A DNA stretch of 50,222 bases from an uncultured Bacteroidales bacterium (GTDB lineage: Bacteria > Bacteroidota > Bacteroidia > Bacteroidales > Paludibacteraceae), in the NCBI GenBank assembly GCA_902798015.1, contig CADBVL010000006.1, forward strand, positions 1 through 50,222, given 5' to 3'. The notes beneath the pieces were generated by a model. That model searched no databases and was not told the DNA's origin. It worked only from the letters and a program-made list of their open reading frames with translations. A program made the translations under genes and the position numbers. Positions 6,126 to 31,218 of the stretch are shown here, one piece after another. The stretch's first letter is position 1, and the number at the start of each line of letters is the position of its first letter.

Positions 6126-7917
6126 CGAACAACGAAATACTGTATGGCGTTTTGCGATCATCTTCGCCATTATCCTTTGCGGCTTCCTCGCCGTGATGGG
6201 CAAGATCATCTATGTCCAGACGGTGGAGCGCGACGCATGGCTCAAGGTGGCGGAGAAACAAGTACCTACCCACAAGCCTATCCCTGCCACGCGGGGGAAC
6301 ATCCTCGACTGCAACGGTCAACTCCTGGCATCCAGCATGCCGCAGTATTATATGTACATGGACACGCGCGTGCCTGCACTTCATGAGAAGAACGGAGCAC
6401 TTTTCACCGCGCATATCGACACCCTCGCGCGCGATTTGTCTGTTATAGTAGGCGAACACACGCAAGCGGAGTACAGGGCGCGTATCACGCGGGCTTACCT
6501 GCGCGGGGAGAAACGACTAAGGGTATGCGACCATCGCATCAACTACCTGCAGAGACGCGAACTCGAACTCAATCCGCTCATCAAGAAAGGCAAATATAAA
6601 TCCGGTATTTTCTTTGAGGACCAGTACCGCCGCATCAAGCCCTTCGGTATCCTTGCCAGCCGCACCATCGGCGGTATTTACGGAGACGGCGGAGGGGGTA
6701 ACTCCGGACTCGAGAAGCGCTTCGACAAAGAACTGCGGGGTGTGGACGGCATGAGTTCCATTCAGCGTATCGGCGGACGCAATGAGTCCGTCACCGAAGA
6801 GGAGGCGCAGGACGGACTGGATGTCGTCACCGCCATCGACGCCAACCTGCAGGATATCGTCGAGAACGCGCTCCTCGCCAAGACCGCCGAGCGGCATGCA
6901 CGATGGGGCTGCGCCATCCTCATGGAGACCAAGACCGGGTATATACGCGCCATCGCCAATCTCGACCGCGACAAGGAGTCCGACCAGTATTTCGAGGCGC
7001 AGAACCATGCCGTGCAGCGCGTCGAGCCCGGCTCTACTTTCAAGACTATCGCACTTGTCGCAGCACTCGATGACGGGAAGATAGCTATCAACGACACTGT
7101 CTCTGTCAGCCGCCAGCCATGGCAGTATTTCACGGTCAAACACACCGATGCGCATCCTATGGACACGCTTCTCACCGTCCGCTCCGCGCTCGCCGTGTCA
7201 AGCAACATCGCACTCGCCAAGCTCATCACGCGTAGTTATGAAGGCTCTGCGAAGAAGTTCGTGCGGCGTATCGAGCGTATGGGACTCACCGACAGTGTCT
7301 ATTGTGAGATACCGGGGGCAGACAAAGTGCGCATCGACGTGCCGCGTGACACGGTCACACTCAGTAAGATGTCGTACGGCTACTCCGTCGAACTGAGTCC
7401 GATGCAGATTCTCATGTTCTACAACGCCATCGCCAATGGCGGACGGATGATGCGTCCCATGCTCGTCACGGCTATTCGCCAGAACGGCGAGGACGTCCGG
7501 ACGTTCCGCCCCGAAGTGGTGAAGTCCTCTATCTGCTCGTCGCGCACGTTGCGGGATATACAGGGTGCCCTCCATGATGTTGTTTGGGATGACCATTTAG
7601 GCACGGCGGCCGCCAAGCCCTGGAGCCGCAAGGCGCAGTCTAAACTCGTGTCTATTGCCGGCAAAACCGGCACGGCGCAGCTATTCATACCGGGACACGG
7701 CTATTCCGGCAGACATCACCGCATGACTTTCGTCGGCTATTTCCCCGAGGAAAACCCGCAATACACCTGTATCTGTATGATTGAGGACCCGCAGTTCCCT
7801 TACGACGCGGGCATGGACTGCGGCACGGCTGTGCGCGTCATCGCCGAGAAGACCATGGCATATACAGGGTGTTATGTTTTTCGGGACGGCACTCGCCGCC
7901 TTGAAAAACGGAATTAA
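6118..7917 (+). CDS. ftsI: Septal peptidoglycan transpeptidase FtsI (class B PBP)
   Basis: 599 aa. N-terminal membrane anchor (residues 11-33), a dimerisation domain with ATRGNILDCNGQLLA (57-71), then the transpeptidase domain with STFK (Ser306 nucleophile, Lys309), SSN (361-363) and KTG (516-518). It cross-links septal peptidoglycan together with FtsW. The protein ends about 80 residues after KTG and has no PASTA domain, whereas many Bacteroidota FtsI/PBP2 homologues carry one. ATG 6118 overlaps the ftsL end. The stop codon lies in a 7-nt repeat array. Confidence 0.93.
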   Translation: MSDEQRNTVWRFAIIFAIILCGFLAVMGKIIYVQTVERDAWLKVAEKQVPTHKPIPATRGNILDCNGQLLASSMPQYYMYMDTRVPALHEKNGALFTAHIDTLARDLSVIVGEHTQAEYRARITRAYLRGEKRLRVCDHRINYLQRRELELNPLIKKGKYKSGIFFEDQYRRIKPFGILASRTIGGIYGDGGGGNSGLEKRFDKELRGVDGMSSIQRIGGRNESVTEEEAQDGLDVVTAIDANLQDIVENALLAKTAERHARWGCAILMETKTGYIRAIANLDRDKESDQYFEAQNHAVQRVEPGSTFKTIALVAALDDGKIAINDTVSVSRQPWQYFTVKHTDAHPMDTLLTVRSALAVSSNIALAKLITRSYEGSAKKFVRRIERMGLTDSVYCEIPGADKVRIDVPRDTVTLSKMSYGYSVELSPMQILMFYNAIANGGRMMRPMLVTAIRQNGEDVRTFRPEVVKSSICSSRTLRDIQGALHDVVWDDHLGTAAAKPWSRKAQSKLVSIAGKTGTAQLFIPGHGYSGRHHRMTFVGYFPEENPQYTCICMIEDPQFPYDAGMDCGTAVRVIAEKTMAYTGCYVFRDGTRRLEKRN

Positions 7918-7932
7918 AAATTAAGAATTAAG
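7912..7932 (+). repeat. Heptamer array at the ftsI-murE junction
   Basis: Three units AATTAAA, AATTAAG, AATTAAG. The ftsI stop TAA (7915-7917) lies in the first unit; the murE ATG follows 6 nt after the array. The same units occur at 20377-20397. Confidence 0.7.
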
Positions 7933-7938
7933 GATAAT

Positions 7939-9477: not shown

Positions 9478-9516
9478 ACGCCCGAAGGGCAATAAACGGA
9501 GCAAAGCTCCACTAAA
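9475..9516 (+). repeat. Two TAAAC mini-hairpins between murE and mraY
   Basis: The murE stop TAA starts TAAAC-GCCC-gaa-GGGC (stem 9480-9490), followed by AATAAAC-GGAGC-aaa-GCTCC (9498-9510). The two adjacent hairpins have unrelated stem sequences but the same layout and 3-nt purine loops. Confidence 0.65.
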
Positions 9517-9527
9517 CTTTTAAACAA

Positions 9528-10811: not shown

Positions 10812-10877
10812 ACGACCGCAGGCGAAGCCTGCTAAAAGGATAAAGACCGTTTCACTAAAAGACAAAAGACAAAAATG
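10809..10877 (+). repeat. TAAAC hairpin plus heptamer array at the mraY-murD junction
   Basis: The mraY stop TAA begins TAAAC, followed by GCAGGC-gaa-GCCTGC (10818-10832). Then come AAAAGAC (10857-10863), AAAAGAC (10864-10870) and AAAAATG (10871-10877), in which the last three bases are the murD start codon. Confidence 0.65.
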
Positions 10878-12158: not shown

Positions 12159-13408
12159 AAAAGCCTGATTTGCAAAATATCGACCGCACGTACTGGTGGC
12201 TGTTTGCGCTGCTGATAGCGGTGGCGATCATCGCCCTCTTCTCCGCGTCGAGCACGCTCGTCTATTCGCACCATTCCGCCCTTGGGCCTATTGGTCAGCA
12301 GATGTTCTTCATCGTGTTAGGTGTGTTGGCGGCGTTCGGTATCCAGTATATACCGTCGTACTGGGTGCGTTTCGGCGGGTATGTGCTCTTGGGCATCAGC
12401 ACGCTGCTCGTCTATTCGACGATGATCCCGGGTAATCCGCTGGTGGTGACGATCAACGGTGCGGCGCGATGGGTGCGTATCGCCGGCATCACGTTCCAAC
12501 CCTCCGAGCTCGCCAAGTTGAGTCTGATCATCGTCGTGGCGGACCAGCTCGCGCGCATCAGGACGGAGGACGACAAACGCAAGTATTTCTACCGCACCTT
12601 GATTCTCTCGGTGGTGGTCATGTTACCGGTCATGGCATCTAACCTCTCCACGGCGGTGCTGATAGGGCTCATCATCTTCTGTCTTTGGGTCCTCGCGCGT
12701 ATCCCGTGGAGATATACGCTGTCGGTCGTGGGGATTGCCGTGGTGGTGTTGTGCCTGGGTTATGCCATCGTCGAGTTCGGTTTTGTCCGGCCCAACCGGC
12801 CGATGCACGGTCCGTTCAAACGCGCTACCACCTGGGTCAGTCGTATCGACCGGCATCTGAATATAGGAGATCAGACGTCAGAAGTCAGAGATGAGAAATA
12901 CGTTCTTACGGACGAGAACATCCAGGAGGTGTATGCGTCGGTGGCTATCGCGCGCGGTGGTGCTTCGCCGCTGGGTGTCTTGCCGGGCAACAGCAAGGAA
13001 CGGGACTACCTGCCGCTTGCTTTCGCCGATTATATCTTCGCCATCATCGTGGAGGAGTCAGGTGTCTTGGGGGCGGGTTTTGTCATCTTCTTGTACTTAG
13101 CTATTCTCTTCCGGGCTTGTAATATATCCAGCCGGTACAGTGACATGCCGGCGATGCTGATGACGATGGGCTTGGCGCTGATGATCACGTGCCAGGCGTT
13201 GATATCTATGCTGGTGGCGGTAGGCCTGGGACCCGTCACGGGTCAGCCCTTGCCGCTCATCTCGAGAGGCGGCACGTCTGTGCTCATCACGTCTGTCTAT
13301 TTCGGCATCCTGATGGGCGTGAGCCGGGAGCAGAAAGAACTGCGTGCACGCGTCAACGTCACCCGCGAAGAGTCCGCCGAGGACGCCCCCATCGTCACCT
13401 TGGAATAG
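12155..13408 (+). CDS. ftsW: Septal peptidoglycan glycosyltransferase FtsW
   Basis: 417 aa SEDS-family polytopic membrane protein that polymerises lipid II at the septum with FtsI. Ten or so membrane segments are visible, plus the SEDS signatures FQPSELAKL, ALISMLVAVGLGPVTGQPLPLISRGG and YIFAIIVEESG. Residues 239-248 (bases 12869-12895) form a charged insert from a GTCAGA-type repeat, in the large extracytoplasmic loop. The stop TAG is the first triplet of a 7-nt repeat. This is the last gene of the contiguous cluster: murG, normally next, lies 5.8 kb further on. Confidence 0.95.
   Translation: MKKPDLQNIDRTYWWLFALLIAVAIIALFSASSTLVYSHHSALGPIGQQMFFIVLGVLAAFGIQYIPSYWVRFGGYVLLGISTLLVYSTMIPGNPLVVTINGAARWVRIAGITFQPSELAKLSLIIVVADQLARIRTEDDKRKYFYRTLILSVVVMLPVMASNLSTAVLIGLIIFCLWVLARIPWRYTLSVVGIAVVVLCLGYAIVEFGFVRPNRPMHGPFKRATTWVSRIDRHLNIGDQTSEVRDEKYVLTDENIQEVYASVAIARGGASPLGVLPGNSKERDYLPLAFADYIFAIIVEESGVLGAGFVIFLYLAILFRACNISSRYSDMPAMLMTMGLALMITCQALISMLVAVGLGPVTGQPLPLISRGGTSVLITSVYFGILMGVSREQKELRARVNVTREESAEDAPIVTLE
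12869..12895 (+). repeat. In-frame GTCAGA short repeat in ftsW
   Basis: Imperfect 7-9-nt units around GTCAGA. It lies in an extracytoplasmic loop of FtsW, near the conserved segment before QVYASVAIARGG. Confidence 0.55.
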
Positions 13409-13424
13409 AGGTTAGAGGTTAGAC
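13406..13424 (+). repeat. Heptamer array at the ftsW stop codon
   Basis: TAGAGGT, TAGAGGT, TAGAC. The first TAG is the ftsW stop codon. The array fills nearly the whole gap before the DUF2851 gene. Confidence 0.7.
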
Positions 13425-13431
13425 TGAACGA

Positions 13432-14655: not shown

Positions 14656-14682
14656 TTGAAGAAAAAAAAAAATACCCACAGG

Positions 14683-14709
14683 GTGTAACCTTTGTGTACA
14701 TTGGGTATC
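14683..14709 (+). promoter_or_regulatory. ECF sigma promoter upstream of the sigma factor gene
   Basis: GTGTAACCTTT starting at 14683 and GTATC at 14705-14709. AACC (14687-14690) and GTATC are exactly 14 nt apart. The same pair with the same spacing occurs at 15564-15590, and neither site has the TAnnTTTG element. This suggests an autoregulated ECF promoter. The start codon at 14723 would be only a few bases after the transcription start. Confidence 0.6.
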
Positions 14710-14722
14710 TTGTAGGTAGAAC

Positions 14723-15590: not shown

Positions 15591-15660
15591 ATATAAATAG
15601 AGGAGCATACTAGTCAACTCCCTAAAATAACTTTGTTAAACAATTAAAATTCATAACATT

Positions 15661-16092: not shown

Positions 16093-16121
16093 CGCCCAAA
16101 GCTTCATACTTTGGTTGTTAT

Positions 16122-17985: not shown

Positions 17986-18029
17986 GAGCTGCCTTTGAGC
18001 ACCCTTTCAGCACCCATTGAGCACCCTTT
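17986..18029 (+). repeat. Four 11-nt repeats in the tonB-eamA convergent gap
   Basis: Units GAGCTGCCTTT, GAGCACCCTTT, CAGCACCCATT and GAGCACCCTTT run head to tail. The remaining bases to the eamA stop (18058) carry a looser AACCAGGTGG/AACCACGTGG pair. No gene is seen in the gap 17830-18057. Confidence 0.7.
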
Positions 18030-18057
18030 GGAACCAGGTGGAAACCACGTGGAGACC

Positions 18058-19044
18058 CTACATCGACCCTATTGCCAGACATATGAGTCCTGCAAGAATG
18101 CCAACCATGCAGACCACTTTCTTCCACGGGTCTTCCTCTTTGAGGAAAAGCAGGCCGTACGCAAAACCAATCACCGCCCCACCTCTTCGAATCGTACTCA
18201 CCACCGCTATCAGACTGTCCGGATCCCGCAGCGCCAACATATACACATTATCGCTGATGATCAAAAACACCGAGATGAGAAGAATCGGAGTGAACGGATG
18301 AACGAGTGAACGGGTGAACGGGGTCCCCCAGCCCCCTGAAGGGGGAGAGACTCGCGCAATGATGCGCGAGAAGGGAAAGACGAAATCCCCCCGGCCCCCT
18401 GAAGGAGGAGAGGCGAGCAGAGATCCGACAAGCAGTATGAGGGCTTGGTAGAACGTATAATACACCTGCACGGCGTTATGGTCATAACTGCGCATCAGGA
18501 ACTTGTCGTACAAGCCCGAACACGCCCCGATCAATATCGCCAACGCCAGTGCCACATAATAGCGGCCCGCCGGAGTATGCCTAGTATTCCGAATAGTCTG
18601 TTTATTACGAAACGAGAACACAAACACCGTTCCTATCGCCAGACTCACACCCAGCCATTGCCATCCGTTCAGGCGCTCCCCGAACAGCAACAACGCACCC
18701 ACCAAAGTCCACATCGGACGTGTAGCCTGCATCGGGCTGACGACGGACAAGGGCAGATGTTTGAGGGATATATAGGCAAAGACCCAGCTGCTGAGTACAA
18801 TCACGGACTTGAGCACGACCAGTCCGTGCGCTTTCAGATCCAGCGACGGCACGTAGAAGGGCGTAGTGGTCATCATCTCCGGGCAGATGCGCGAGAGTAG
18901 CCAGGGCACCGAGAGGAAGAGCGCCGAGAACCACACGCTCAGAGTCAGCACATCGATGACACGGTTGGACTGCAGGGCCACCTTCTTACTGATATCATAA
19001 CACCCCAGACAGAGGGCGGAAATGAACGATAAAACAAGCCACAT
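18058..19044 (-). CDS. EamA/DMT superfamily transporter with an in-frame repeat insert
   Basis: 328 aa from ATG 19044 (the frame is open to 19101, but that part overlaps the promoter). About ten membrane helices in two EamA halves (LVLSFISALCLGCYDISKK, LPLSVVSPMQATRPMWTLVGALLLFGERLNGWQWLGVSLAIG, and the C-terminal AVVSTIRRGGAVIGFAYGLLFLKEE). Members export small metabolites or amino acids; the substrate cannot be told. Residues about 211-251 are a foreign-looking Pro/Gly/Ser-rich segment with SPPSGGRGD and SPPSGGWGT, encoded by GC-rich repeats (18324-18412) and an octamer array (18292-18323). It falls between two helices and keeps the frame. Confidence 0.88.
   Translation of the reverse strand: MWLVLSFISALCLGCYDISKKVALQSNRVIDVLTLSVWFSALFLSVPWLLSRICPEMMTTTPFYVPSLDLKAHGLVVLKSVIVLSSWVFAYISLKHLPLSVVSPMQATRPMWTLVGALLLFGERLNGWQWLGVSLAIGTVFVFSFRNKQTIRNTRHTPAGRYYVALALAILIGACSGLYDKFLMRSYDHNAVQVYYTFYQALILLVGSLLASPPSGGRGDFVFPFSRIIARVSPPSGGWGTPFTRSLVHPFTPILLISVFLIISDNVYMLALRDPDSLIAVVSTIRRGGAVIGFAYGLLFLKEEDPWKKVVCMVGILAGLICLAIGSM
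18292..18323 (+). repeat. Octamer array inside eamA
   Basis: Four units: GAACGGAT, GAACGAGT, GAACGGGT and GAACGGGG. The first 31 nt are identical, in the same order, to the array in the murG leader (19130-19160), about 840 bp away. Confidence 0.8.
18324..18412 (+). repeat. Paired GC-rich REP-like element inside eamA
   Basis: Two copies of a C-rich/G-rich inverted unit with core CCCCCTGAAGG (18324-18349 and 18386-18412) flank a perfect hairpin CTCGCGCA-atga-TGCGCGAG (18351-18370). Each copy is itself a small inverted repeat. Read on the minus strand they encode SPPSGG twice. It has the look of a REP-type or miniature mobile element. Confidence 0.65.
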
Positions 19045-19118: not shown

Positions 19119-19129
19119 CCGCGTTTTTT

Positions 19130-19177
19130 GAACGGATGAACGAGTGAACGGGTGAACGGGTGAACGGATGAAAGGTA
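19130..19177 (+). repeat. Octamer array in the murG leader
   Basis: Six 8-nt units, mostly GAACGGGT or GAACGGAT, the last GAAAGGTA. It begins just after the predicted transcription start and ends 16 nt before the murG ATG. Confidence 0.8.
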
Positions 19178-19193: not shown

Positions 19194-20282
19194 ATGCGTT
19201 ATTTGATATCCGGAGGGGGGACCGGAGGACATATCTTCCCCGCAGTGAGTATAGCCAATGCGCTGAAGGAGTTGGATCCGGAGGCGGAGATTTTGTTTGT
19301 GGGTGCCCTGGGTCGTATGGAGATGGAGCGTGTGCCGCAAGCGGGTTATAAGATCGTGGGTTTGCCTGTGCGCGGTTTCAACCGTTCGCAGCCGTGGAAG
19401 AACGTGTCGGTGCTGATCGACCTGGCTAAGTCGATTCGTCAGGTGAAGCGTATCATCCGTGATTTCCGTCCGGACGTAGGTGTGGGTGTAGGAGGTTACG
19501 CTTCGGGTGCGGCGATGTGGGCCGCAGCGCAGATGGGTATACCTATCCTGCTGCAGGAGCAGAACGGTTTTGCGGGTGTGACGAACAAGATACTGAAGGA
19601 CAAGGCGTCGAAGATATGCGTGGCGTACGAAGGCATGGAGCGTTTCTTCCCTGCCGACAAGATCATCCTCACCGGCAATCCCGTGCGGCAGAACCTGGAG
19701 AAAGGAAAGAGGGGAAAAGTGAAAGGTGAAAGGAATCTGCTTATTCTTGGAGGCAGTCTCGGTGCGCGGACGATCAACGAGGCGGTGATGGCGGCGATTG
19801 GAGGTCAGAAGTCAGATATCAGAAGTCAGCTATCAGAGATCAGAGTGGTATGGCAGACGGGAAAGGTGTATTACGAGCGATGCAAGGCGGCATGGGAGGC
19901 GGCAGGTTGTCCCGCTAACATCGAGTGTCTGGATTTTCTCACGGACATGCCGGACCGTTATGCGCAAGCGGACCTTGTGATCTCTCGTGCGGGTGCTTCG
20001 TCCATCAGCGAGATATGTCTGTTAGGCAAACCCGCCATCCTCGTGCCATCGCCAAACGTAGCGGAGGATCATCAGACGCATAACGCCATGGCGTTGGTGA
20101 ACAAAGATGCGGCGGTGCTGGTGAAAGACTGCGAGGCGGTGGAGAAGCTCATTCCCACGGCGCTGGAGTTGATACAAGACGATGCGCGGTTGGAGAGACT
20201 GCATACGAACGTGCTGACGCTCGCGCAACGCGATTCCGCGAAGCGCATCGCGGAGGAAGTGATGAAACTCGCCGCTCGGTAA
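19194..20282 (+). CDS. murG: Lipid II synthase MurG (GlcNAc transferase)
   Basis: 362 aa. MurG adds GlcNAc to lipid I on the cytoplasmic face of the inner membrane. Motifs: SGGGTGGHIFPAVSIA (residues 6-21), GVGVGGYASG, LQEQNGFAGVTNK, LILGGSLGARTINEA, and SRAGASSISEICLLGKPAILVPSP near the UDP-GlcNAc site. Two short repeat-encoded stretches lie in frame: residues 169-181 (GAAAGG-type units, 19698-19733) and 203-217 (GTCAGA-type units, 19801-19845), both in surface positions of the C-terminal domain. It has its own promoter and is detached from the rest of the dcw cluster, with no murC or ftsQ after it. Confidence 0.95.
   Translation: MRYLISGGGTGGHIFPAVSIANALKELDPEAEILFVGALGRMEMERVPQAGYKIVGLPVRGFNRSQPWKNVSVLIDLAKSIRQVKRIIRDFRPDVGVGVGGYASGAAMWAAAQMGIPILLQEQNGFAGVTNKILKDKASKICVAYEGMERFFPADKIILTGNPVRQNLEKGKRGKVKGERNLLILGGSLGARTINEAVMAAIGGQKSDIRSQLSEIRVVWQTGKVYYERCKAAWEAAGCPANIECLDFLTDMPDRYAQADLVISRAGASSISEICLLGKPAILVPSPNVAEDHQTHNAMALVNKDAAVLVKDCEAVEKLIPTALELIQDDARLERLHTNVLTLAQRDSAKRIAEEVMKLAAR
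19698..19733 (+). repeat. In-frame GAAAGG short repeat in murG
   Basis: Imperfect 7-8-nt purine units (GAAAGGT, GAAAAGT) encoding a Lys/Gly/Arg-rich loop between NPVRQNLE and NLLILGGSLG. Confidence 0.65.
19801..19845 (+). repeat. In-frame GTCAGA/ATCAGA short repeat in murG
   Basis: About six imperfect units of 7-8 nt (GTCAGAA, GTCAGAT, ATCAGAA, ATCAGAG). They encode a Ser/Gln/Arg-rich loop before VVWQTGKVYYE. Confidence 0.7.
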
Positions 20283-20360
20283 GTACTCTTCGGAGTAACT
20301 CGCCCCATGCTCGACGACTCTCGCGGACCCCAACCGCTCGAGACGCCTCCGAGAGAGTAC
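20283..20360 (+). repeat. Inverted repeat between murG and the AsmA-like gene
   Basis: GTACTC-tt-CGGAG (20283-20295), directly after the murG stop, pairs with CTCCG-aga-GAGTAC (20347-20360) across a 51-nt centre that also contains CTCGACGACTC/CTCGAGACG segments. No T run follows, so it is not a standard terminator. Confidence 0.6.
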
Positions 20361-20376
20361 ATACCTCGCTAAGAAA

Positions 20377-20397
20377 AATTAAAAATTAAGAATTATG
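20377..20397 (+). repeat. Heptamer array at the start of the AsmA-like gene
   Basis: AATTAAA, AATTAAG, AATTATG. The final ATG is the start codon of the AsmA-like gene. Units match those at 7912-7932. Confidence 0.7.
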
Positions 20398-22005: not shown

Positions 22006-22008
22006 GAC

Positions 22009-23079
22009 ATGAAAGAGCTGCTGCAACACGCACAACATATCGTCATCCTCACGCACATGGCGCCCGACGGCGATGCCATGGGTTCAGCGCTTGCGCTGTA
22101 CAACCGGTTAAACGTGCCGGAGGCACAGTTAAACGCGGCAGAGCCGCAGTGTAAACGCGCTGAGAGCGCGAGTGTATCTGTGATTGTGCCGAATGCTTTC
22201 CCTGCTTTCTTCAACTGGATGCCGGGTGCGGAGCGTGTGCATGTGTATGAGAAAGAGAGCGCTGTGTGCGACGACATCCTCGCCGCCGCGGATCTCTTCC
22301 TCTGCACCGACTTCAACGATCCCAAACGTATCGGGCCGGTGGGCGAGAAGATGCTTGCCAACCCCTGTCCGAAAATCCTCATAGACCATCATCTGATGGA
22401 TGAGGGGGCGAAAGGATTAGTGGATGAGGGGTTCTGGACGGAGGTGCATTCTCATCCGGAGGCATCTTCGGCATGCGAGATAGTGTATAAGGTGTTAACG
22501 AGTGAACGTTTAACGAGTGAACGGTTAACGGAAGAGGTGGCGACATGTATCTATACGGGTCTGATGACGGACACGGGTAATTTCAGTTATAACTCCACGC
22601 GTGCGGAGTTATACGACATCATCGCCGCTTTGCTACGCGCGGGCGTGCAGAAGGATGCGATATACAACGCCGTCTTTAACCAATACTCCGAGCATCGCGT
22701 CCGTCTTACCGGCTACGCTCTTTATCGCAAGATGCGTATCTACCCGGAGCACCACCTGGCACTCATCACCCTCTCCGCGGACGAACTGGAGCAGTACCAT
22801 TATCAGGTGGGCGACACCGAAGGACTAGTGAACATGCCGTTGCAGATCAGCGACGTCTATTACTCCGTCTTCATGCGTGAAGAGCGCGCCAAACCCGGTA
22901 CGCCCAAGTCCCGCATCCGTATCTCTTTCCGCTCGCAAGGCGACCGACCCGTCAATATATGGGCTCATGAGGTCTTCCACGGCGGAGGACATGCCAACGC
23001 CTCAGGAGGCGAACTGTTCGGCACTATCGGACAAGCAGTTAGACTTTTTGAACAAACATACAAAAAATACCTGAAATGA
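22009..23079 (+). CDS. DHH/DHHA1 phosphoesterase, NrnA-like
   Basis: 356 aa. DHH motifs: ILTHMAPDGDAMGSALAL (metal ligands, residues 14-31), CTDFND, LIDHH (DHH motif near 125), YTGLMTDTGNFSY, and C-terminal DHHA1 GGGHANASGG. NrnA-type enzymes degrade oligoribonucleotides (nanoRNA) and pAp or cyclic dinucleotide products. Two repeat-derived segments lie in frame. Residues 34-54 come from three TAAAC mini-hairpins (22109-22170). Residues 163-175 are LTSER repeated (22495-22531). Both lie between conserved blocks. The stop overlaps the foldase gene by 4 bp. Confidence 0.9.
   Translation: MKELLQHAQHIVILTHMAPDGDAMGSALALYNRLNVPEAQLNAAEPQCKRAESASVSVIVPNAFPAFFNWMPGAERVHVYEKESAVCDDILAAADLFLCTDFNDPKRIGPVGEKMLANPCPKILIDHHLMDEGAKGLVDEGFWTEVHSHPEASSACEIVYKVLTSERLTSERLTEEVATCIYTGLMTDTGNFSYNSTRAELYDIIAALLRAGVQKDAIYNAVFNQYSEHRVRLTGYALYRKMRIYPEHHLALITLSADELEQYHYQVGDTEGLVNMPLQISDVYYSVFMREERAKPGTPKSRIRISFRSQGDRPVNIWAHEVFHGGGHANASGGELFGTIGQAVRLFEQTYKKYLK
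22109..22174 (+). repeat. Three covarying TAAAC mini-hairpins inside the nrnA-like gene
   Basis: GTTAAAC-GTGCC-gga-GGCAC, GTTAAAC-GCGGC-aga-GCCGC and TGTAAA-CGCGCT-gag-AGCGCG follow one another with a period of about 21 nt. The flanks are nearly constant while the stems differ completely, yet every stem pairs perfectly. The reading frame is kept through all three. Confidence 0.75.
22495..22531 (+). repeat. In-frame 15-nt repeat in the nrnA-like gene
   Basis: Two and a half copies of a 15-nt unit built from TTAACGAG and TGAACGT. Because 15 is a multiple of 3, it encodes LTSER twice, then LTEE. The units are close relatives of the octamers at 18292, 19130 and 25526. Confidence 0.75.
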
Positions 23080-24863
23080 AAAAAGCATTTTTATTTATCG
23101 TTGCAGTATTGAGCCTGAACATGATGGCTCAAGACAAGCCGCTGATGACGATCAACGGCCAACCGGTGAGTGCGGAGGAGTTCCTCTACATCTACGAGAA
23201 AAACAACCAGGCAGGAGCCATTGACCCCAAGACCATGGACGAGTACCTGGACATGTTCATTAACTTCAAGCTCAAAGTGGTGGAAGCCGAGGCACAGGGT
23301 ATCGACACGACCGAGGCGTTCAAGAAAGAGTTGAAAGGTTACCGTGCGCAGGCTACTCCGAAATACCTGCAGGACGACGCAGCGCTGGACAGTCTGATCG
23401 AGATGAGTTGGCGTCACATGGCCAAAGACCGCCGTGCGGCTCATATCGCCATCCAGTGTCCGATGAACGCGGACAGTGCGGCGCAGGCAGAGGCGCTCGC
23501 GAAGATCAACGACGCTTACGAGCGCGTGACCATTGGTAAGATGAAAAGTGAAAGAAAGAAAGTGAAAGGCAAATGGCGCAATGTAGAGAAACGCATGCCG
23601 GCAGAACCTTTCGCTGACGTAGCACGCGAACTCAGTACCGACCCTTCCGTACAAGAGACCGGTGGTGAGTTGGGATGGATCACTCCGTTCCGTTATGTCT
23701 ATCCGCTCGAGGAGGCTGTGTATAACACCGAGGTGGGTAAGATCAGCACCCCCTTCCGCACGCAATACGGGTGGCATATCGTTCTCGTCGAGGAAGAGCG
23801 TGACCACAAAGAAGTGAAAGCCAGTCATATCATGAAGATGACGCCGCGCGGCGAGAACGAAGACTCGATCATCGCCGCCAAGAAGATCGTCATCGATTCC
23901 ATCGCAGCCATCGTGACATCGGAGAACTTCGGTGAGATAGCGCAGATAGAGTCCGAAGACCGCGGCAGCAGTGCTCGCGGCGGTGACCTCGGATGGTTCG
24001 GCAAAGGCATGATGGTCAAACCCTTCGAAGACTCTGCTTTCTCCTTGGAGACAGGTCAGATCAGTGCGCCCTTCCGTACGATGTACGGATGGCATATCCT
24101 GTATAAAGAAGGCGAACGCGGCATCCAACCTCTTGATTCGATCCGTACGCAGGTAGAACGTCAGGTGATGCGCGACGAGCGCGCCAAGGAAGCCGACAAG
24201 AGTTTTGTTCGCAAGACCCGTAAGGAATATAACCTGCCGGCCAGCATGACGGACGAGGAAGTGAAAGCCTACGCCGACGAGCACCTCGAGGAGAAATATC
24301 CGGAACTGAAAAACCTCGTGCAGGAGTACCACGACGGTATCCTGCTCTTCGAAGTATCGCTCCGCGAGGTATGGGACAAAGCCGCTAAAGACACCGCCGG
24401 CCTCGAGCAGTTCTTCGCTGCCAACAAGAAGAAATATACCTGGGACAAGCCGCACTTCAAGGGTTGGTTGCTGCAGTGCAAAGACAAGAACAGTGCCCGC
24501 GCTGCGCAGGCTATCATCCGTAGTGCCGAGCCCGACTCCGTGAAGAGTTATATCGCCCGTCGTATCAACCAGGACAGCACCGTCTATGTGAAAGCACAAC
24601 GCGGTCTCTGGGAGCAGGGCAAGAACGCCGCTGTGGACAAGTACGGACTCAAGGTGAAGAAAGCCGAGTTTACCCCGAACGAGCAACTGCCTTACGTCGT
24701 TTGTGTAGGTAAGAAACTCAAAGCCCCCGCAACGTGGGATGACGAGAAAGGCAAAGTGACCACCGACTACCAGGATTTCCTCGAGAAAGCATGGATCGAG
24801 CGCCTGCGCGCCAAGTATCCGGTGGTGATCAACGAGGACGTTTGGAAGAAGATTAGGAAATAA
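23076..24863 (+). CDS. Periplasmic peptidyl-prolyl isomerase with two parvulin domains
   Basis: 595 aa. Signal peptide (residues 1-18, ends MMAQ), a SurA/PpiD-like N-terminal helical region with NGQPVSAEEFLYIYEKNN, then two PpiC (parvulin) domains. The first ends with ETGGELGWITPFRYVYPLEEAVYNTEVGKISTPFRTQYGWHIV, the second with SSARGGDLGWFGKGMMVKPFEDSAFSLETGQISAPFRTMYGWHIL. Such proteins fold outer membrane and secreted proteins. It is longer than E. coli SurA (428 aa), with an extra C-terminal domain of about 200 residues. A repeat-encoded Lys/Arg-rich stretch lies at residues 156-165 (23541-23570). The stop abuts a heptamer array. Confidence 0.9.
   Translation: MKKAFLFIVAVLSLNMMAQDKPLMTINGQPVSAEEFLYIYEKNNQAGAIDPKTMDEYLDMFINFKLKVVEAEAQGIDTTEAFKKELKGYRAQATPKYLQDDAALDSLIEMSWRHMAKDRRAAHIAIQCPMNADSAAQAEALAKINDAYERVTIGKMKSERKKVKGKWRNVEKRMPAEPFADVARELSTDPSVQETGGELGWITPFRYVYPLEEAVYNTEVGKISTPFRTQYGWHIVLVEEERDHKEVKASHIMKMTPRGENEDSIIAAKKIVIDSIAAIVTSENFGEIAQIESEDRGSSARGGDLGWFGKGMMVKPFEDSAFSLETGQISAPFRTMYGWHILYKEGERGIQPLDSIRTQVERQVMRDERAKEADKSFVRKTRKEYNLPASMTDEEVKAYADEHLEEKYPELKNLVQEYHDGILLFEVSLREVWDKAAKDTAGLEQFFAANKKKYTWDKPHFKGWLLQCKDKNSARAAQAIIRSAEPDSVKSYIARRINQDSTVYVKAQRGLWEQGKNAAVDKYGLKVKKAEFTPNEQLPYVVCVGKKLKAPATWDDEKGKVTTDYQDFLEKAWIERLRAKYPVVINEDVWKKIRK
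23541..23570 (+). repeat. In-frame GAAAG short repeat in the parvulin gene
   Basis: Imperfect units GTGAAAG, AAAGAAA and GTGAAAG in the middle of the first parvulin domain, encoding about ten mostly basic residues (SERKKVKGK). Confidence 0.55.
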
Positions 24864-24898
24864 GTTTAGGGTTTAGGGTTTAGTGTTTAGAGTTTAGT
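24864..24898 (+). repeat. GTTTAGN heptamer array between the parvulin and gldG genes
   Basis: Five head-to-tail units: GTTTAGG, GTTTAGG, GTTTAGT, GTTTAGA, GTTTAGT. It begins at the base after the parvulin stop codon, and its end provides the GTG start codon of the gldG-like gene (24897). A second array of the same unit lies after gldG (26547-26574). Confidence 0.85.
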
Positions 24899-26552
24899 GT
24901 TGAAAAAGTACGCGCCGTACATATTTATCGTTGGACTATTCCTGTGTTTATACGGGGTGCTGCAAGTGTGTCCTGTTCGTTGGGACATGACGGACGACAA
25001 GCATTACAGCCTGAGCGAGGCCTCCAAGGCCCTGTTGCGTTCGACCGATGCCCCTATCGAAGTGACCCTTCTTCTGGACGGTGACCTCAATGCGGGTTTC
25101 CGGCGACTCAGAAAAGCCACTGAAGAAACCATCGAAGAACTCGATGTCTATGCTGACATCGTAAAAGTGAAAGATGAAAGGTTAAAGGTGAAAGGAGACT
25201 CTTTAGGTCTCTCGCCGATCATCATCCATGAGCGTGAACAGAACGGCAAGACGGCGCAGACGACGGTCTTTCCGTACGCCCTGATGAGGTACAAAGGCAA
25301 GCGTGCGGTGGTGACGCTCCTCAAGAACACCCGCGGCCTCAGCGGCGAAGAGAACCTCAACGCCAGCATCGAGCAGTTGGAGTTCGCTTTCATGGAAGCC
25401 CTTCATCTGCTCACGCAACAGGAGACGCCGCGCGTAGCTATCCTCGAGGGGCACGGCGAACCCGATGAGGCACACACGTACGACCTGATGACGGCGCTCA
25501 GCAAGTACTTCCAAGTGGACAGAGGGAGTGTAACGAGTGAAGGTTTAACGGATGAACGAGTGAACGTACACATGTTGGACGGCTATCAAGCTATACTGAT
25601 CCTTGCGCCGCAGACGGCGTTCAGTGATGCCGAGCGGTTCATCATCGACCAGTACATCATGCGTGGCGGCGCGGTCTTATGGGCGCTCAACGGTGTGCAA
25701 CTGAGTGAAGAAGTGCTGCAGAAAGACGGTTTTACGCCCATCATCCCCTTGGATCTCGGTCTTACCGACCTGCTCTTCCGTTATGGCGTGCGCGTCAATC
25801 CCGCCCTGGTACAGGACATACAGTGTCTGCCGATACCCGTCAATGTGTCCTCCGACGCCGAGCACCCGAATTTCCAACCCATGCCGTGGACGTATGCCCC
25901 GCTGTTACTGACCAGTCAGGGTTCTCCTATCACGAAGAACATGGGACAGGTGATGAGTACGTTCGTCAGTCCTATCGATGCCGTAGGCGGAGAAGACGGC
26001 ATTGAGAAACGTATCCTCCTTGCTACCAGCACCGCTAGTCGCATCACGGCTACGCCCGGAGAAGTGAACCTGAGTGACATGAACCCTGACATGTCGGAGT
26101 TTAAGTACCAATATGTACCGGTTGCCGTCTCCCTCGAAGGCGCCTTCAGCAGCGCTTATGCGCACCGCATGATACCTGAAGGAGTGATGACCGATGAACC
26201 CGTCCGTAAGACCGGCGTACCGACCCGTCAAGTGGTCATCGCTTCGGGAAGCATCGTCATCAATGAGTTGCAGAAAAACCAGGCGCTACCGATGGGTTAC
26301 GACCGATACAGCGGCATGCAGTTCTCCAACCGTGACCTGATCGTCAATGCCGTGCTATGGCTCACCGACGCCGAGGGACTCATCGCCCTGCGGGAGAAAG
26401 ACGTGGCGCTACGTCTGATTAACGACCGACGCGCACACGAAGAACGAATGAATATCCAACTGATCAGCACTATCTGCCCCGTTGCGATCCTTGCGCTCAT
26501 CGGCGGCACGGTGTTTGTGGTCAGAAAAAGAAAATACGCTAAGAGGGTTTAG
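24897..26552 (+). CDS. gldG: GldG-like ABC-associated membrane protein
   Basis: 551 aa. N-terminal membrane helix (about 7-25), a large extracytoplasmic region, C-terminal helix (about 523-542). The N-terminal block RWDMTDDKHYSLSEASKALL and EGHGEPDE, followed by an Rossmann-like ILAPQTAFSDAERFIIDQYIMRGGAVLWALNG, match GldG, the auxiliary subunit of the GldF-GldG transporter of Bacteroidota (gliding-linked in flavobacteria, present also in non-gliding Bacteroidales). No gldF permease or gldA ATPase is nearby. The start is GTG 24897 or TTG 24900, both at the edge of the repeat array. Residues 90-100 and 210-224 are repeat-encoded. The stop TAG lies in the next array. Confidence 0.75.
   Translation: MLKKYAPYIFIVGLFLCLYGVLQVCPVRWDMTDDKHYSLSEASKALLRSTDAPIEVTLLLDGDLNAGFRRLRKATEETIEELDVYADIVKVKDERLKVKGDSLGLSPIIIHEREQNGKTAQTTVFPYALMRYKGKRAVVTLLKNTRGLSGEENLNASIEQLEFAFMEALHLLTQQETPRVAILEGHGEPDEAHTYDLMTALSKYFQVDRGSVTSEGLTDERVNVHMLDGYQAILILAPQTAFSDAERFIIDQYIMRGGAVLWALNGVQLSEEVLQKDGFTPIIPLDLGLTDLLFRYGVRVNPALVQDIQCLPIPVNVSSDAEHPNFQPMPWTYAPLLLTSQGSPITKNMGQVMSTFVSPIDAVGGEDGIEKRILLATSTASRITATPGEVNLSDMNPDMSEFKYQYVPVAVSLEGAFSSAYAHRMIPEGVMTDEPVRKTGVPTRQVVIASGSIVINELQKNQALPMGYDRYSGMQFSNRDLIVNAVLWLTDAEGLIALREKDVALRLINDRRAHEERMNIQLISTICPVAILALIGGTVFVVRKRKYAKRV
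25164..25196 (+). repeat. In-frame GAAAGGT short repeat in gldG
   Basis: Units AAAGTGA, AAGATGA, AAGGTTA, AAGGTGA. It encodes a Lys/Asp/Glu-rich loop (VKVKDERLKVKGD). Confidence 0.65.
25526..25568 (+). repeat. In-frame TAACGAGT/GAACGAGT octamers in gldG
   Basis: Units TAACGAGT, GAAGGTTTAACGGAT, GAACGAGT and GAACGTAC, the same family as at 18292, 19130 and 22495. The encoded segment is VTSEGLTDERVNV. Confidence 0.65.
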
Positions 26553-26574
26553 TGTTTAGAGTTTAGTGTTTAGT
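26547..26574 (+). repeat. GTTTAGN heptamer array at the gldG stop codon
   Basis: Four units GTTTAGT, GTTTAGA, GTTTAGT, GTTTAGT. The gldG stop TAG (26550-26552) is part of the first unit; ATG 26579 of the next gene follows 4 nt after the array. Confidence 0.85.
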
Positions 26575-26578
26575 GAAG

Positions 26579-27964: not shown

Positions 27965-28629
27965 TCCTCTTCTGCACGTTGTGTGCCGTAATGTGCACAC
28001 TAAGCCTGCAGGCTCAACCCCGCTTGCGCGAACGGGAGTTCTATCTCGGCGTGCATGGCGGTGTGACAGCCAGTTCGATAATCTTCCGCCCTTTCGTGGC
28101 GAACATGACACCCATTACGAATGCTTGCGTGCTTGCCGGAAATGGAGGAATTGTCTTCCGCTACGCCGGACATAAATACTGCGCCTTTCAGATGGAACTC
28201 AACTACGTCCATCGCGGATGGGCGGAGAAGAACGCGGCAGGAGAACGCTATGAGCGTAACCTCCATTATATTGACCTGCCGATTCTCATGCACCTGAACT
28301 TCGGCAGCCGTACCTGCCGGTGGATCTTTAACCTCGGTCCGCAGATTGGTTATTGTATCAAAGACGAAGGAAATAAAGGCGTATTGGTGAACGGCCTCGG
28401 ACAAACGGAGTATCAACCTATCGACCATCCATTCTACTGGGGACTGTTAGCCGGCACCGGCGTCTCTTTTCCTACTGCCCGCGCAGGAGTGTATCAGATA
28501 GAGGCACGCTTCGAGTTCTCCTTTGGAGGGGTTTACGGAACGTCCCTCACGGACTATTTCTCCATGGCCAGTCCGATAGACCTGAGTGTCAACTTCGCAT
28601 GGCTGTGGCCCGTACGCAAACGTAAATGA
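27940..28629 (+). CDS. PorT-like outer membrane beta-barrel protein
   Basis: 229 aa from ATG 27940 (MRRSRHIL), inside the end of the previous gene; an earlier in-frame start would extend into it further. Signal peptide ends LSLQAQ. The mature part has the alternating pattern of a small 8-stranded beta barrel: FYLGVHGGVTASSII, AFQMELNYVHRGWAEK, YIDLPILMHLNFGS, FNLGPQIGYCI, PFYWGLLAGTGVSF. This is the layout of the PorT/outer membrane beta-barrel family, some members of which serve type IX secretion. The specific function is not known. The stop TGA is the first triplet of a repeat array. Confidence 0.75.
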   Translation: MRRSRHILILFCTLCAVMCTLSLQAQPRLREREFYLGVHGGVTASSIIFRPFVANMTPITNACVLAGNGGIVFRYAGHKYCAFQMELNYVHRGWAEKNAAGERYERNLHYIDLPILMHLNFGSRTCRWIFNLGPQIGYCIKDEGNKGVLVNGLGQTEYQPIDHPFYWGLLAGTGVSFPTARAGVYQIEARFEFSFGGVYGTSLTDYFSMASPIDLSVNFAWLWPVRKRK

Positions 28630-28654
28630 AAGTTGAAAGTTTAAAGTTGAACGA
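28627..28654 (+). repeat. TGAAAGT heptamer array before kduI
   Basis: TGAAAGT, TGAAAGT, TTAAAGT, TGAACGA. The first TGA is the stop codon of the barrel protein gene; kduI starts 3 nt after the array. Confidence 0.8.
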
Positions 28655-28657
28655 TAT

Positions 28658-29500: not shown

Positions 29501-29528
29501 TTTATGATTTCAAGTTTATGATTTCAAA
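29501..29528 (+). repeat. 14-nt duplication covering the kduD start
   Basis: TTTATGATTTCAAG followed by TTTATGATTTCAAA. The first ATG (29504) opens a 5-codon frame MISSL whose TGA overlaps the true kduD ATG at 29518 (ATGA). Confidence 0.75.
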
Positions 29529-30324
29529 TTTGTTTAGCCTGGAAGGCAAGAACGCCTGGGTGACAGGTGCTTGCTATGGTATAGGCTTCGCTATTGCGAA
29601 AGCATTTGCTCAGGCAGGGGCAAAGACCATCATTTTCAATGCACGCCATGAAGAAGGTGTTGCCAAAGCCATCGAGGATTACAAGGCGGCAGGTATCGAG
29701 AACGTCAAGGGCTATGTATGCGACGTGACGGACGAGAAGGCCGTGAAAGAGTTGGTAGAACGGATTCACAAAGAGGTGGGTCAAATCGATATTTTAGTGA
29801 ACAACGCCGGCATCATCAAACGTATCCCGATGCATGAGATGAAGCGTGAGGAGTTCCAACAAGTGATTGATATTGACCTCGTGGCTCCGTATATCGTGAG
29901 CGCTGCCGTACTGCCGGAGATGATGGAAAGACGCGAAGGAAAAATCATCAATATCTGCTCAATGATGAGTGAGTTGGGCCGCGAGACGGTGAGTGCCTAT
30001 GCCGCAGCGAAAGGCGGATTGAAGATGCTGACGCGTAACATCTGCTCCGAGTACGGCGAGTACAACATCCAGTGCAACGGTCTTGGCCCGGGTTATATTG
30101 CTACGCCGCAGACGGCACCGTTGCGTGAGCCGCAGCCGGACGGAAGCAAACATCCGTTCGACAGTTTCATCTGCGCAAAGACTCCGGCAGGCCGATGGCT
30201 CGATGCGGATGAGTTAGGCGGCACGGCGGTGTTCCTCGCCAGCCACGCGAGCGATGCGGTCAACGGACAGATTATTTATGTTGATGGCGGCATTTTGGCC
30301 TATATCGGAAGGCAGCCGAAGTAA
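29518..30324 (+). CDS. kduD: 2-dehydro-3-deoxy-D-gluconate 5-dehydrogenase KduD (SDR family)
   Basis: 268 aa short-chain dehydrogenase. KduD reduces the KduI product to 2-keto-3-deoxygluconate with NADH. The N-terminal cofactor loop VTGACYGIGFA (TGxxxGxG), NNAG (in ILVNNAGIIKR), active-site Ser in ICSMMSELG, YxxxK in SAYAAAKGGLK, and the C-terminal GQIIYVDGGILAYIG are all present. N-terminus MISNLFSLEGKNAWVTG matches KduD rather than other SDRs, as does the pairing with kduI. The stop TAA lies at the start of a heptamer array. Confidence 0.93.
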   Translation: MISNLFSLEGKNAWVTGACYGIGFAIAKAFAQAGAKTIIFNARHEEGVAKAIEDYKAAGIENVKGYVCDVTDEKAVKELVERIHKEVGQIDILVNNAGIIKRIPMHEMKREEFQQVIDIDLVAPYIVSAAVLPEMMERREGKIINICSMMSELGRETVSAYAAAKGGLKMLTRNICSEYGEYNIQCNGLGPGYIATPQTAPLREPQPDGSKHPFDSFICAKTPAGRWLDADELGGTAVFLASHASDAVNGQIIYVDGGILAYIGRQPK

Positions 30325-30355
30325 AGTTGAAAGTTGAAAGATGAAAGTTGAAAGA
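30321..30355 (+). repeat. TGAAAGT heptamer array at the kduD-DUF4861 junction
   Basis: GTAAAGT, TGAAAGT, TGAAAGA, TGAAAGT, TGAAAGA. The kduD stop TAA is in the first unit, and the DUF4861 ATG (30341) lies across units 3-4, so the first codons of that gene are made of the repeat. Confidence 0.85.
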
Positions 30356-31186
30356 TATTTTCTAATCATCGCGTTGCTCCTTTGTCTGGCTTCGTGTCAG
30401 AAAGAGGCGGTGCAGCCGAAAGTGTATGGGCGCTATGTGCCCGAGCGCAAGGATGACTTCGCGTGGGAGAACGAGTACGCAGCTTTTCGTATGTACGGTC
30501 CTGCGTTGCGTCCTGAGAACCCGTCCAACGGTGTCGATCTATGGCTGAAGGCTTCGCCGGAACTCGTCGTGGATAGTTTCTATTACCGCGAGCATTGTCT
30601 CGGCCTGCCATATCATATCAACTACGGCAAAGGCCTCGACTGTTACAAAGTAGGGCATACATGCGGCGCTGGAGGACTGATCGTATTGGCCAATGACACC
30701 ACCTATATCGGCGGACCATACGACCGTTGGACCATCCTCGAACAGACACCGGACAAGTTCGTCTTTCGCCTGGAGTACGACAGTCTGTTGGTTGCCGGAC
30801 ATATCCTGCAAGAGACGATCACTATCACCGCCGAAGCCGGACAGTTGCAGAATAAGGCGGAAGTGGTACTTACCGGAGACTATTCTGGTGAACTGCTCGT
30901 CGGCGGCGGAATATACCTGCATGACACGGTGGACTACCACCTGACAATACCGGAAGTTGGATACGTGTTCTACGAGGAAGATGCCTTGAGCGACAAGACG
31001 GCGGCGCAAATGAACTACGATTACAACGGTAGTACCACTCAGGGACGCGTCCAGATCTCTGTCAAAACGCCGGGTGCTACGCTGACGGAGATTCGGGACG
31101 GTAACCTTATCGCTGTACGTCCGTACGAATTAGGTGACACGCTGACGTACTTTTTCGGGGCCACATGGAGCGAATGGAAAGAGTAA
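30341..31186 (+). CDS. DUF4861 family lipoprotein
   Basis: 281 aa. Lipoprotein signal with lipobox LASC (Cys19). The body is beta-rich, with RPENPSNGVDLWLKASPELVVDSFYY, GLPYHINYGKGLDCYKVGHTCGAGGL and the terminal YELGDTLTYFFGATWSEW, in line with DUF4861, a family met in Bacteroidota polysaccharide-degradation loci. Its chemistry is not established to my knowledge. Linkage to kduI and kduD suggests a role on uronic acid oligosaccharides at the cell surface or in the periplasm. The first codons, MKVER, are encoded by the repeat array. Confidence 0.8.
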   Translation: MKVERYFLIIALLLCLASCQKEAVQPKVYGRYVPERKDDFAWENEYAAFRMYGPALRPENPSNGVDLWLKASPELVVDSFYYREHCLGLPYHINYGKGLDCYKVGHTCGAGGLIVLANDTTYIGGPYDRWTILEQTPDKFVFRLEYDSLLVAGHILQETITITAEAGQLQNKAEVVLTGDYSGELLVGGGIYLHDTVDYHLTIPEVGYVFYEEDALSDKTAAQMNYDYNGSTTQGRVQISVKTPGATLTEIRDGNLIAVRPYELGDTLTYFFGATWSEWKE

Positions 31187-31190
31187 AAAA

Positions 31191-31218
31191 TGTAAGGTGT
31201 AAAGTGTAAGATGTATGA
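31191..31218 (+). repeat. TGTAARG heptamer array before the heptosyltransferase gene
   Basis: TGTAAGG, TGTAAAG, TGTAAGA, TGTATGA. The start codon ATG (31215-31217) of the next gene is in the last unit. Confidence 0.8.

Follow-up and report, generated by a model that had tools for sequence, protein, structure and literature searches.

Along the cell-wall gene cluster of an uncultured Bacteroidales bacterium the gaps between genes are repeatedly filled by short tandem arrays of heptamers, of one period and many sequences, raising the question as to what kind of process places them there. The window examined (the whole stretch of DNA analysed, 50,222 nucleotides, C6:1-50222) belongs to a metagenome-assembled genome (MAG) of 1.95 Mb in 122 contigs that is 85% complete. 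It holds the Bacteroidales cluster mraW, ftsI, murE, mraY, murD, ftsW and, further on, murG, and beyond murG an AsmA-like gene, a DHH gene, a rotamase (PPI) gene, gldG, a beta-barrel gene, kduI, an SDR gene, a DUF4861 gene and a GT9 gene; these are the names we presume from gene position, with domains assigned via Pfam. A preliminary description of the window had noted nine heptamer arrays at gene junctions and attributed them to a process generating 7-nt repeats rather than to a copied element. We find that such arrays exist at orthologous junctions, and in frame within protein loops, of this genome and its relatives, that the period is specific, and that the units at any one site differ between species. 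The reading we tentatively favour, with a confidence somewhat below even, is that weakly constrained DNA in this Bacteroidales clade has been repeatedly rewritten into period-7 and period-8 arrays by a templated, length-neutral process, together with exchange between arrays.

Abundance and period of the arrays

The genome (labelled G000; G and L numbers denote genomes and stretches or loci respectively) was sampled as 41 stretches amounting to 810,309 of its 1,953,570 bases. In this 810-kb sample, exact lag runs of 12 or more are most numerous at period 7 (37) and period 8 (22); periods 11, 9 and 12 give 11, 7 and 2, the compound periods 14, 15 and 16 give 13, 7 and 10, and there are none at periods 2-6, 10 or 13. 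Three third-order Markov shuffles, used as the chance control, yield none at period 7 and at most one at every period. Tandem Repeats Finder (TRF), run at score 36, reports 102 rows of period 7 and 50 of period 8, compared with 0 and 1 in one shuffled control and 1 and 1 in the other. The arrays are genuine, exceeding chance by a wide margin, and all nine of those originally named are recovered by TRF with coordinates matching within a few bases; array coordinates given below for the window are those of TRF, on the forward strand. Among the exact runs period 11 ranks after 7, 8 and compound 14, and period-11 arrays are present in the window at 3563-3587, 17992-18030 and 47699-47733.

Period-7 density (exact runs of at least 11) is 68 per Mb in this genome, 118 per Mb in 16 near members of its GTDB genus, 30 per Mb in 20 far members, and 8 per Mb in the order's other families (20 genomes). 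The two halves of the genus were sampled as C1 stretches; with more stretches and masking, the densities are 123 per Mb for the near half and 19-22 per Mb for the far half. A scan with FtsW for relatives recovered 70 loci, of which one is a distant match in Phycisphaeraceae and 69 are close (78-97% FtsW identity). The close loci are mostly labelled 'uncultured Bacteroidales', Bacteroidales or Paludibacteraceae, many being from ruminant gut by name, and two that are labelled Lachnospiraceae and Clostridiales are probably misbinned. These 69 ftsW loci, a junction-rich region, have a period-7 density of 165 per Mb. Because the arrays recur across MAGs whose record names indicate separate projects (RUG, RGIG, UBA, metaWRAP bins), we reject an assembly artefact as their source, and this recurrence, together with the 7-nt steps in gap length described below, supports the original proposal of a lineage-specific process yielding 7-nt repeats, to which 8-nt repeats must be added.

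Orthologous junctions in relatives

In the window an (AATTAAA/G)3 array (7911..7932) holds the ftsI stop codon, in the gap to murE, and AATTAAA/G arrays are found at this junction in nine relatives (L079, L080, L086, L089, L103-L106 and L123). The gap measures 21, 28 or 35 nt here and in eight of the nine, and 7 nt in L123; the close kin L082 and L083 have no array at this position. When orthologous sites are scored by a lag criterion, arrays are detected at ftsI-murE in 12 of 49 orthologs, at murE-mraY in 28 of 52 (with 19 canonical units), at mraY-murD in 9 of 53, and at the mraW junction in 7 of 39. Those at murE-mraY comprise 24 at lag 7 and four at lag 8, with none at the other lags tested (4-12), and letter-shuffled sites (MurG loop 1 and murE-mraY) reach the criterion at most 0.15 times per set. 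The (AAAAGAC)2.6 array directly 5′ of the murD start (10857..10874) is kept in L079, L080, L103 and L105. At murE-mraY the loci L084 and L085, which are 93.5% identical, have TTGAAAG and TTTGACA arrays respectively. An 8-mer array of the TGAACGGA type in the divergent gap upstream of murG (19129..19172) has 32 nt in common with another of this type within a called reverse-strand gene (18286..18322), and shows length differences of 8 and 17 nt when compared with L079.

Between close relatives array copy number varies in unit steps, as in slippage-type heptameric repeats. Clean indels number 28 in 23 locus pairs, 12 of them tandem-type, and tandem-type length differences within arrays are of 7, 8, 14 and 21 nt, with one of 21 nt inside MurG. 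Such steps, and the ftsI-murE gaps of 21, 28 and 35 nt, are those to be expected of ordinary slippage, by which 7-8-nt units would be gained and lost at a high rate in this clade and filtered by selection; arrays would originate in local sequence and grow in gaps, and in genes only multiples of 21 nt would survive. Consistent with this, in most of the genomes surveyed by Mrazek 2007 (as cited in PMC4679880 and PMC4692102) no other long simple repeat is as abundant as the heptamer. The arrays within genes bear directly on this explanation.

In-frame arrays in protein loops

The view of the arrays as a feature of gene junctions proves too narrow: 64 of 175 merged arrays lie within called genes, among them the window's murG, gldG and DHH genes, and some of the 64 may be misplaced, the gene calls (688 genes, with approximate starts) being those of a simple home-made caller. 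MurG loop 1, between RQNL and LLIIGGSLGARTINEA, carries an in-frame TGAAAGG-type array in the window (19710..19733; KRGKVKGERN). Lag 7 is found at this loop in 20 of 45 orthologs, with 13 canonical units, and none of the 45 is at lags 4-6 or 8-12; the units elsewhere are AAAGTCG, AATTAAA, AAAATCG, AAAAATC, GTCAGGA, TGGAAAG, AATGGAC and others. The length of the loop is mostly constant, the segment being 20 amino acids (aa) in 14 of the 20 array-bearing orthologs and in 11 of the 25 that are array-free, and of the latter four have a GC hairpin and four have TAAAC/CTAACAG-type mini-hairpins, both in frame. MurG loop 2 has an in-frame TCAGAAG/TCAGATA array (19801..19845; QKSDIRSQLSEIR), with lag 7 in 5 of 45 orthologs, and that of L079 is exactly 21 nt longer than in this genome.

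GldG loop 1 similarly contains an in-frame TGAAAGG-type array (25163..25195; VKVKDERLKVKG), with lag 7 and no other lag both here and in 5 of 12 near-half orthologs, which use five units. None of 16 far-half frames is at lag 7 (one of the 16, L226, is not the GldG frame), a weaker run is visible by eye in L230, and GC hairpins are present in L218 and L222. An in-frame 8-mer array of the TAACGAGTGAACG type in GldG loop 2 (25526..25566) is reported by TRF and misses the strict lag criterion. The DHH-domain gene has an in-frame 7+8 array, TTAACGAGTGAACG (22494..22531; LTSERLTSERLT), and a YfhO-like membrane protein gene has a perfect (CGACAAA)5 array (38495..38529).

Exact arrays in called genes of this genome are commonest at period 7, which has 20, with one at period 6, five each at periods 8 and 9, two at 11, three at 12, five at 14, seven at 15 (which can be 7+8), and three at 16. 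Under ordinary slippage, selection to keep the frame should leave genes enriched in periods 6, 9 and 12, and in-gene units should mostly be multiples of three; period 7 is instead the commonest. Translated, an array of 28 nt gives about nine residues that do not repeat, and selection on the protein therefore does not create the period. The predominance of period 7 in coding loops, where period 6 is almost absent and period 9 rare, and the mostly constant loop length argue against net slippage coupled to frame selection; a further difficulty is that the sharing of units within genomes, described below, exceeds its nulls. On balance we consider ordinary slippage possible but unlikely.

Unit turnover and genome-specific pools

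On a tree of ftsW DNA, MurG loop 1 requires at least 16 changes of class and at least 23 changes of unit among 45 sequences, and murE-mraY at least 25 unit changes across 52 junctions, figures to be read with the reservations that the tree is a quick one with 18 of 67 inner branches open and that the states depend on the criterion. The initial impression that the unit is different each time holds insofar as units vary, but some recur: TTGAAAG is found in 13, TTTAGAG in 10 and TGAAAGG in nine of the 141 arrays with a 7- or 8-nt consensus, both strands being counted.

Units are shared within a genome. A unit is common to 206 of 9870 pairs of arrays in this genome, versus 430 of 51747 pairs with relatives, and the nulls for these same-unit pairs are 11.4 (maximum 26) using random k-mers from array-free gaps and 15.7 (maximum 32) using letter-shuffled units. 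Among the relatives a canonical unit is common to 71 of 1230 within-locus pairs versus 760 of 57137 pairs between loci at non-orthologous offsets, and shuffled labels give a mean of 20 and a maximum of 45 for the sharing within loci. For 10 of 19 relatives the unit of the MurG loop recurs at another place in the locus (the null has a mean of 2.4 and a maximum of 7), these ten being not independent and representing about four lineages (L086/L089; L100, L116, L120, L124 and L144; L107/L122; L139).

Genome-specific pools of units could also arise by dispersal, if the arrays were small mobile sequences, or the ends of such sequences, copied between junctions and loops. In L113 a 59-nt stretch is present at two junctions with a single mismatch, pairs of arrays less than 8 kb apart in relatives share units more often than those farther apart (62 of 899 versus 9 of 331, p 0.005), and PE1, an element of about 81 bp in relatives that is described below, is flanked by inward-pointing heptamer arrays. 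The L113 copy, and the finding that units are about four times commoner within the relatives' loci than between them, mean that the exclusion of a copied element in the preliminary description cannot stand as a general rule. However, the effect of nearness is not significant in this genome (11 of 317 same-stretch pairs versus 195 of 9552, p 0.10), a DNA search for PE1 gave matches in 2 of 61 genomes and none in G000, and most arrays share units and not unit order, the shared stretches mostly ending with the array (L127 is an exception). We therefore regard dispersal as improbable. The arrays are not clustered in excess of expectation, there being 17 close pairs where 11.9 are expected (maximum 25). 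Because unit order is hardly shared above the level of shuffles, block copying of whole arrays is rejected as a general process, and is supported just in single cases such as L113.

Placement at stop and start codons

The 175 merged arrays comprise 94 in co-directional gaps (of which there are 540), 64 in genes, nine in divergent and five in convergent gaps, and three at stretch ends. It had been proposed that the upstream stop codon lies inside the array, and often the downstream start codon as well, and for the nine named arrays of the window this is partly so. Five contain or overlap the upstream stop: that of ftsI; the (TAGAGGT)2.6 array starting with the ftsW stop codon TAG (13406..13423); the (GTTTAGT)4 array holding the gldG stop codon (26547..26575); the (TGAAAGT)3.6 array whose first bases are TGA, the beta-barrel gene's stop codon (28627..28651); and the (TGAAAGT)4.6 array overlapping the stop of the SDR gene, previously called kduD (30323..30354). 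At the other four the stop either abuts the array, as with the (GTTTAGG/T)5 array running from past the rotamase gene stop up to the gldG GTG (24863..24901) and the (TGTAAGG)3.7 array that separates the DUF4861 stop from the GT9 start (31187..31215), or lies outside it, 45 nt off for mraY and the array before murD, and 91 nt off for the (AAAAATT/AATTAAG)3 array that extends as far as the AsmA-like gene's start codon (20374..20395). As for start codons, that of DUF4861 (30341) is inside its array and those of the AsmA-like gene (20395) and GT9 (31215) are at the array edge, but the murD start is just past the array and the gldG GTG is uncertain.

Across the sample a stop codon is overlapped by 56 of the 94 arrays in co-directional gaps, and a start codon by 35 if the most upstream start is taken, or by 20 with called starts. 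Placement models that we built ourselves, tolerating an array in the last 3, 10 or 21 nt (the strictest being the stop codon only), give expectations of 34.6 (standard deviation 3.7), 50.8 (3.6) and 59.8 (3.4) captured stops. The 56 observed exceed the strictest model only, two of the three models are not exceeded, and we reject targeted stop capture. With the tolerant models expecting 51 or 60, capture is mostly a result of short gaps and not, as first supposed, a special feature of the arrays, over a third of which are in genes.

The orientation of the arrays is more strongly patterned. In co-directional gaps 73 are purine-rich on the coding strand versus 19, compared with 31 versus 31 in genes, and forward stops outnumber reverse stops in 51 gap arrays versus 16, compared with 16 versus 35 in genes, where the stop-bearing orientation is avoided. 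Since the gap unit is usually purine-rich and often stop-bearing on the coding strand, an array reaching the end of a gene holds a stop, and three copies of a stop-bearing unit of period 7 or 8 would cover all frames; some units, such as AAAAGAC and CGACAAA, are without a stop. Stop usage at the 56 captured stops (24 TAA, 22 TGA and 10 TAG) differs from that of the rest (chi-square p 0.005), and the arrays therefore tend to supply their own stop.

These patterns raise the possibility of a function in translation, in which the arrays would terminate the upstream gene in all frames and provide an A/G-rich landing site for the next. The coding-strand purine fraction is 0.609 in 67 gaps with arrays versus 0.523 in 128 array-free gaps, forward-stop density is doubled in the former, and more than half of the merged arrays (94 of 175) are in co-directional gaps. 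However, relatives can be without an array at the same junction (as at mraY-murD, where 9 of 53 have one, and at murE-mraY in L079, L111 and L143, where the gap is just 1-3 nt), 64 arrays are within called genes, and the units are not conserved, and such a function appears very improbable. A few arrays just past a called start (L011 18072 and 19566; L036 11612) are pyrimidine-rich and by eye encode hydrophobic, signal-peptide-like stretches.

A possible mechanism

Templated rewriting at constant length, together with exchange between arrays, could operate if a nascent strand slips back 7-8 nt and, after a few bases have been copied there, realigns in register, such that a neighbouring unit would overwrite the next stretch and leave the length unchanged. 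In gaps the same misalignment could add or remove whole units, and occasional use of an array as template for another at a different locus would give each genome its own pool of units. The targets would be weakly constrained sequences, namely short operon gaps, protein loops and some N-termini, and both placement and orientation would come mostly from selection, with arrays surviving where they are harmless.

Several observations weigh against this interpretation. No array event has been caught in progress, and the slip-copy-return step is one that we infer. Of the 28 clean indels in the 23 locus pairs 16 are not tandem-type, and L087 and L106, which are 96.6% identical, differ at ftsI-murE including the flanking codons; part of the array turnover may be due to recombination between diverged alleles. 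Unit order is hardly shared, being within the shuffle range in this genome at K = 20-24 and above it at K = 26 (15, versus a mean of 7.0 and a maximum of 12), and in relatives within the shuffles at all four values of K. Some loops have changed in length: MurG loop 1 reaches up to 35 aa, MurG loop 2 differs by 21 nt, and GldG loop 2, which is at lag 7 in just 2 of 12 near orthologs and at lag 6 in one (L225), is of greater length in the species that carry an array, changes which fit net insertion. Lastly, no enzyme has been tied to the process. Loss of mismatch repair is rejected, MutS_V being present in 60 of 61 genomes, as is a reverse transcriptase, since RVT_1 is found in 21 of 61 genomes, in 5 of 16 near relatives, and not in G000. 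Loss of proofreading by DNA polymerase I (Pol I) is also rejected as the cause, because array density does not track it.

The Pol I of the near clade (genes L251-L284) is nonetheless distinctive in being without about 145 aa at the position of the 3′-5′ exonuclease domain. The exonuclease-aligned region is 72-85 residues in all 16 near relatives versus 216-224 in five of six genomes of other families, and the DxE motif is present in 2 of 34 genus genomes versus five of six others. Pfam scans place an exonuclease domain in the Pol I of G011, G019 and G038, and detect none in G009, in G014, in G037 (a genome of another family) or in the four near relatives that were scanned. In the far half there are 22 period-7 arrays per Mb in genomes without the exonuclease region (3 in 134 kb) versus 19 per Mb in those with it (9 in 483 kb), and as array density does not follow the loss, the latter is a background condition at most. 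In G000 the Pol I open frame ends at 552 aa (G000:C25:18129-18632 region in L032), and a second fragment is on C119.

A broader proposal, which we regard as doubtful though possible, is that a cellular activity other than classic slippage rewrites unconstrained DNA at a 7/8-nt register and constant length and spreads each genome's current units between loci, the same operon gaps and the same loops of the essential enzymes MurG and GldG being thereby overwritten time after time with new heptamers; the arrays would then constitute a case of concerted evolution of dispersed heptamer arrays, with a polymerase or template switching as the candidate driver.

Other elements at junctions and loops

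A candidate for comparison with MITE/REP-like mobile elements is PE1 (AAAGGGCT...GGACGCTTTG), which has a core flanked by inward-pointing heptamer arrays that form inverted repeats, on both sides in most complete copies. Copies are located at L099 20838-20918, L101 9885-9965, L129 872-953 and 7240-7321, L114 7331-7410, L135 3613-3692, L089 2700-2780 and L132 6213-6292, and in G034 (L205, L207-L212), where an AATGTAC-type array stands on the left and a TGAATTG-type one on the right. Comparison with Rfam gave no match in the three loci scanned (L114, L129 and L099), and PE1 has no strong DNA fold.

A GC-rich hairpin of about 31 nt (CCCCACCCTTACCCTCCCCACAAGGGAGGGG type) is present at MurG loop 1 of L079, L084, L093 and L145, at GldG loops of L214, L216, L218 and L222, and in the ftsI-murE gaps of L087, L099 and L130, thus filling gaps and in-frame loops that in other species are occupied by heptamers. 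Another filler family of junctions and loops consists of tiny hairpins in series, separated by TAAAC or CTAACAG, and is seen in the window (5768-5807 and 9478-9527), at mraY-murD of L083, and at MurG loop 1 of L104 and L096. A palindromic element (TACTCTTCGGAGTAACTCGCCCC...CGCCTCCGAGAGAGTA) occupies different junctions in different genomes, being at 20284-20360 in the window and in the gap between mraW and the next gene in L085, L095, L132 and L145. The mraY-murD gap of L088, L101, L113 and L147 contains an insert of about 460 bp with CCCTCCCCACAAGGGAGGG-type repeats at its borders and one small open reading frame that by eye resembles a DUF559/Vsr-type nuclease; a deleted version of about 150 bp is present in L095 and L096. 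L082 has two inserts of about 240-270 nt, related by eye, in the gap following mraW and at murE-mraY, which have in common TATGTTTATCGCTGACGC-like and GGCAGAGTTTAT...GTTTATTTACATAAATAATTATTTTTGGTATTTTT stretches.

Relationship to known heptamer repeats

Heptamers in tandem are familiar from the STRR repeats of cyanobacteria such as Calothrix, in which, as here, there are several tandem heptanucleotides per genome; these organisms are of a different phylum. Rickettsia palindromic elements are small in-frame repeats in protein genes, about 100 bp in length and palindromic, and not tandem heptamers; the GC hairpin at MurG loop 1 of some relatives resembles these small in-frame repeats.

The suggestion that heptamer repeats had not been described for this lineage must be qualified, since TAACTGA repeats are reported from Beggiatoaceae, cyanobacteria and a few other Bacteroidetes (MacGregor 2015, PMC4679880). 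They too are heptamers, in 2-6 copies in BOGUAY and mostly at gene junctions, with a few in genes; forward repeats give stops in three frames, some overlap the upstream stop, and strains of Cyanothece differ by 7 nt. They differ from the arrays described here in that a single unit is involved, related heptamers being rarely repeated, whereas here there are dozens of units and periods of both 7 and 8; moreover most sets face a start codon, and the in-gene sets are mostly at the protein periphery, whereas here loops within MurG and GldG are affected. TAACTGA itself is present in the 810-kb sample neither as a TRF consensus nor as an exact double copy on either strand, and a (CTGATAA)n array, which has the same unit, is present in the far relative G019 (L181, G019:C1:1-20000).

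The GGGAATC heptamers of Xanthomonas and GGGGA(T/C)T heptamers of Nostoc are described in Rehm 2015 (PMC4692102) as overlapping stop codons or lying close to them, on the coding strand, to which the stop overlap and the purine-rich coding strand of the gap arrays (56 of 94, and 73 versus 19) are similar. Those repeats are, however, G-rich and quadruplex-forming, have one unit type per genome, and are under-represented in coding regions, and here just 10 of the 152 period-7 and period-8 rows of TRF have GGG or CCC in the unit. In Borgs, as described in Schoelmerich 2023 (PMC9879509), the units of tandem repeats within open reading frames are all divisible by three and are perfect, the outcome to be expected of slippage under frame selection, whereas here the period is 7, the arrays are short and imperfect, and MurG keeps a mostly constant length. 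Heptamer-derived satellites are mentioned in PMC6749651. Nothing closer was found in the literature for this lineage, or for heptamer rewriting of protein loops, most subscription papers being outside the coverage of the search. Heptamers at gene ends are thus known, and it is the variety of units and the in-frame, mostly constant-length arrays of many different units in protein loops that are new.

Heptamer repeats have been noted for decades in scattered bacteria, with no agreement as to their cause. This clade provides dozens of species with different heptamers at identical junctions and loops, and makes it possible to test whether a polymerase dictates the 7-base period, and whether a coding sequence can be rewritten in a register other than that of its frame while its length is kept. 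The arrays also call for caution when genes are called or sequences aligned in these genomes. For the organisms themselves, they would represent a natural case in which repeats feed new loop and tail sequences to essential proteins.

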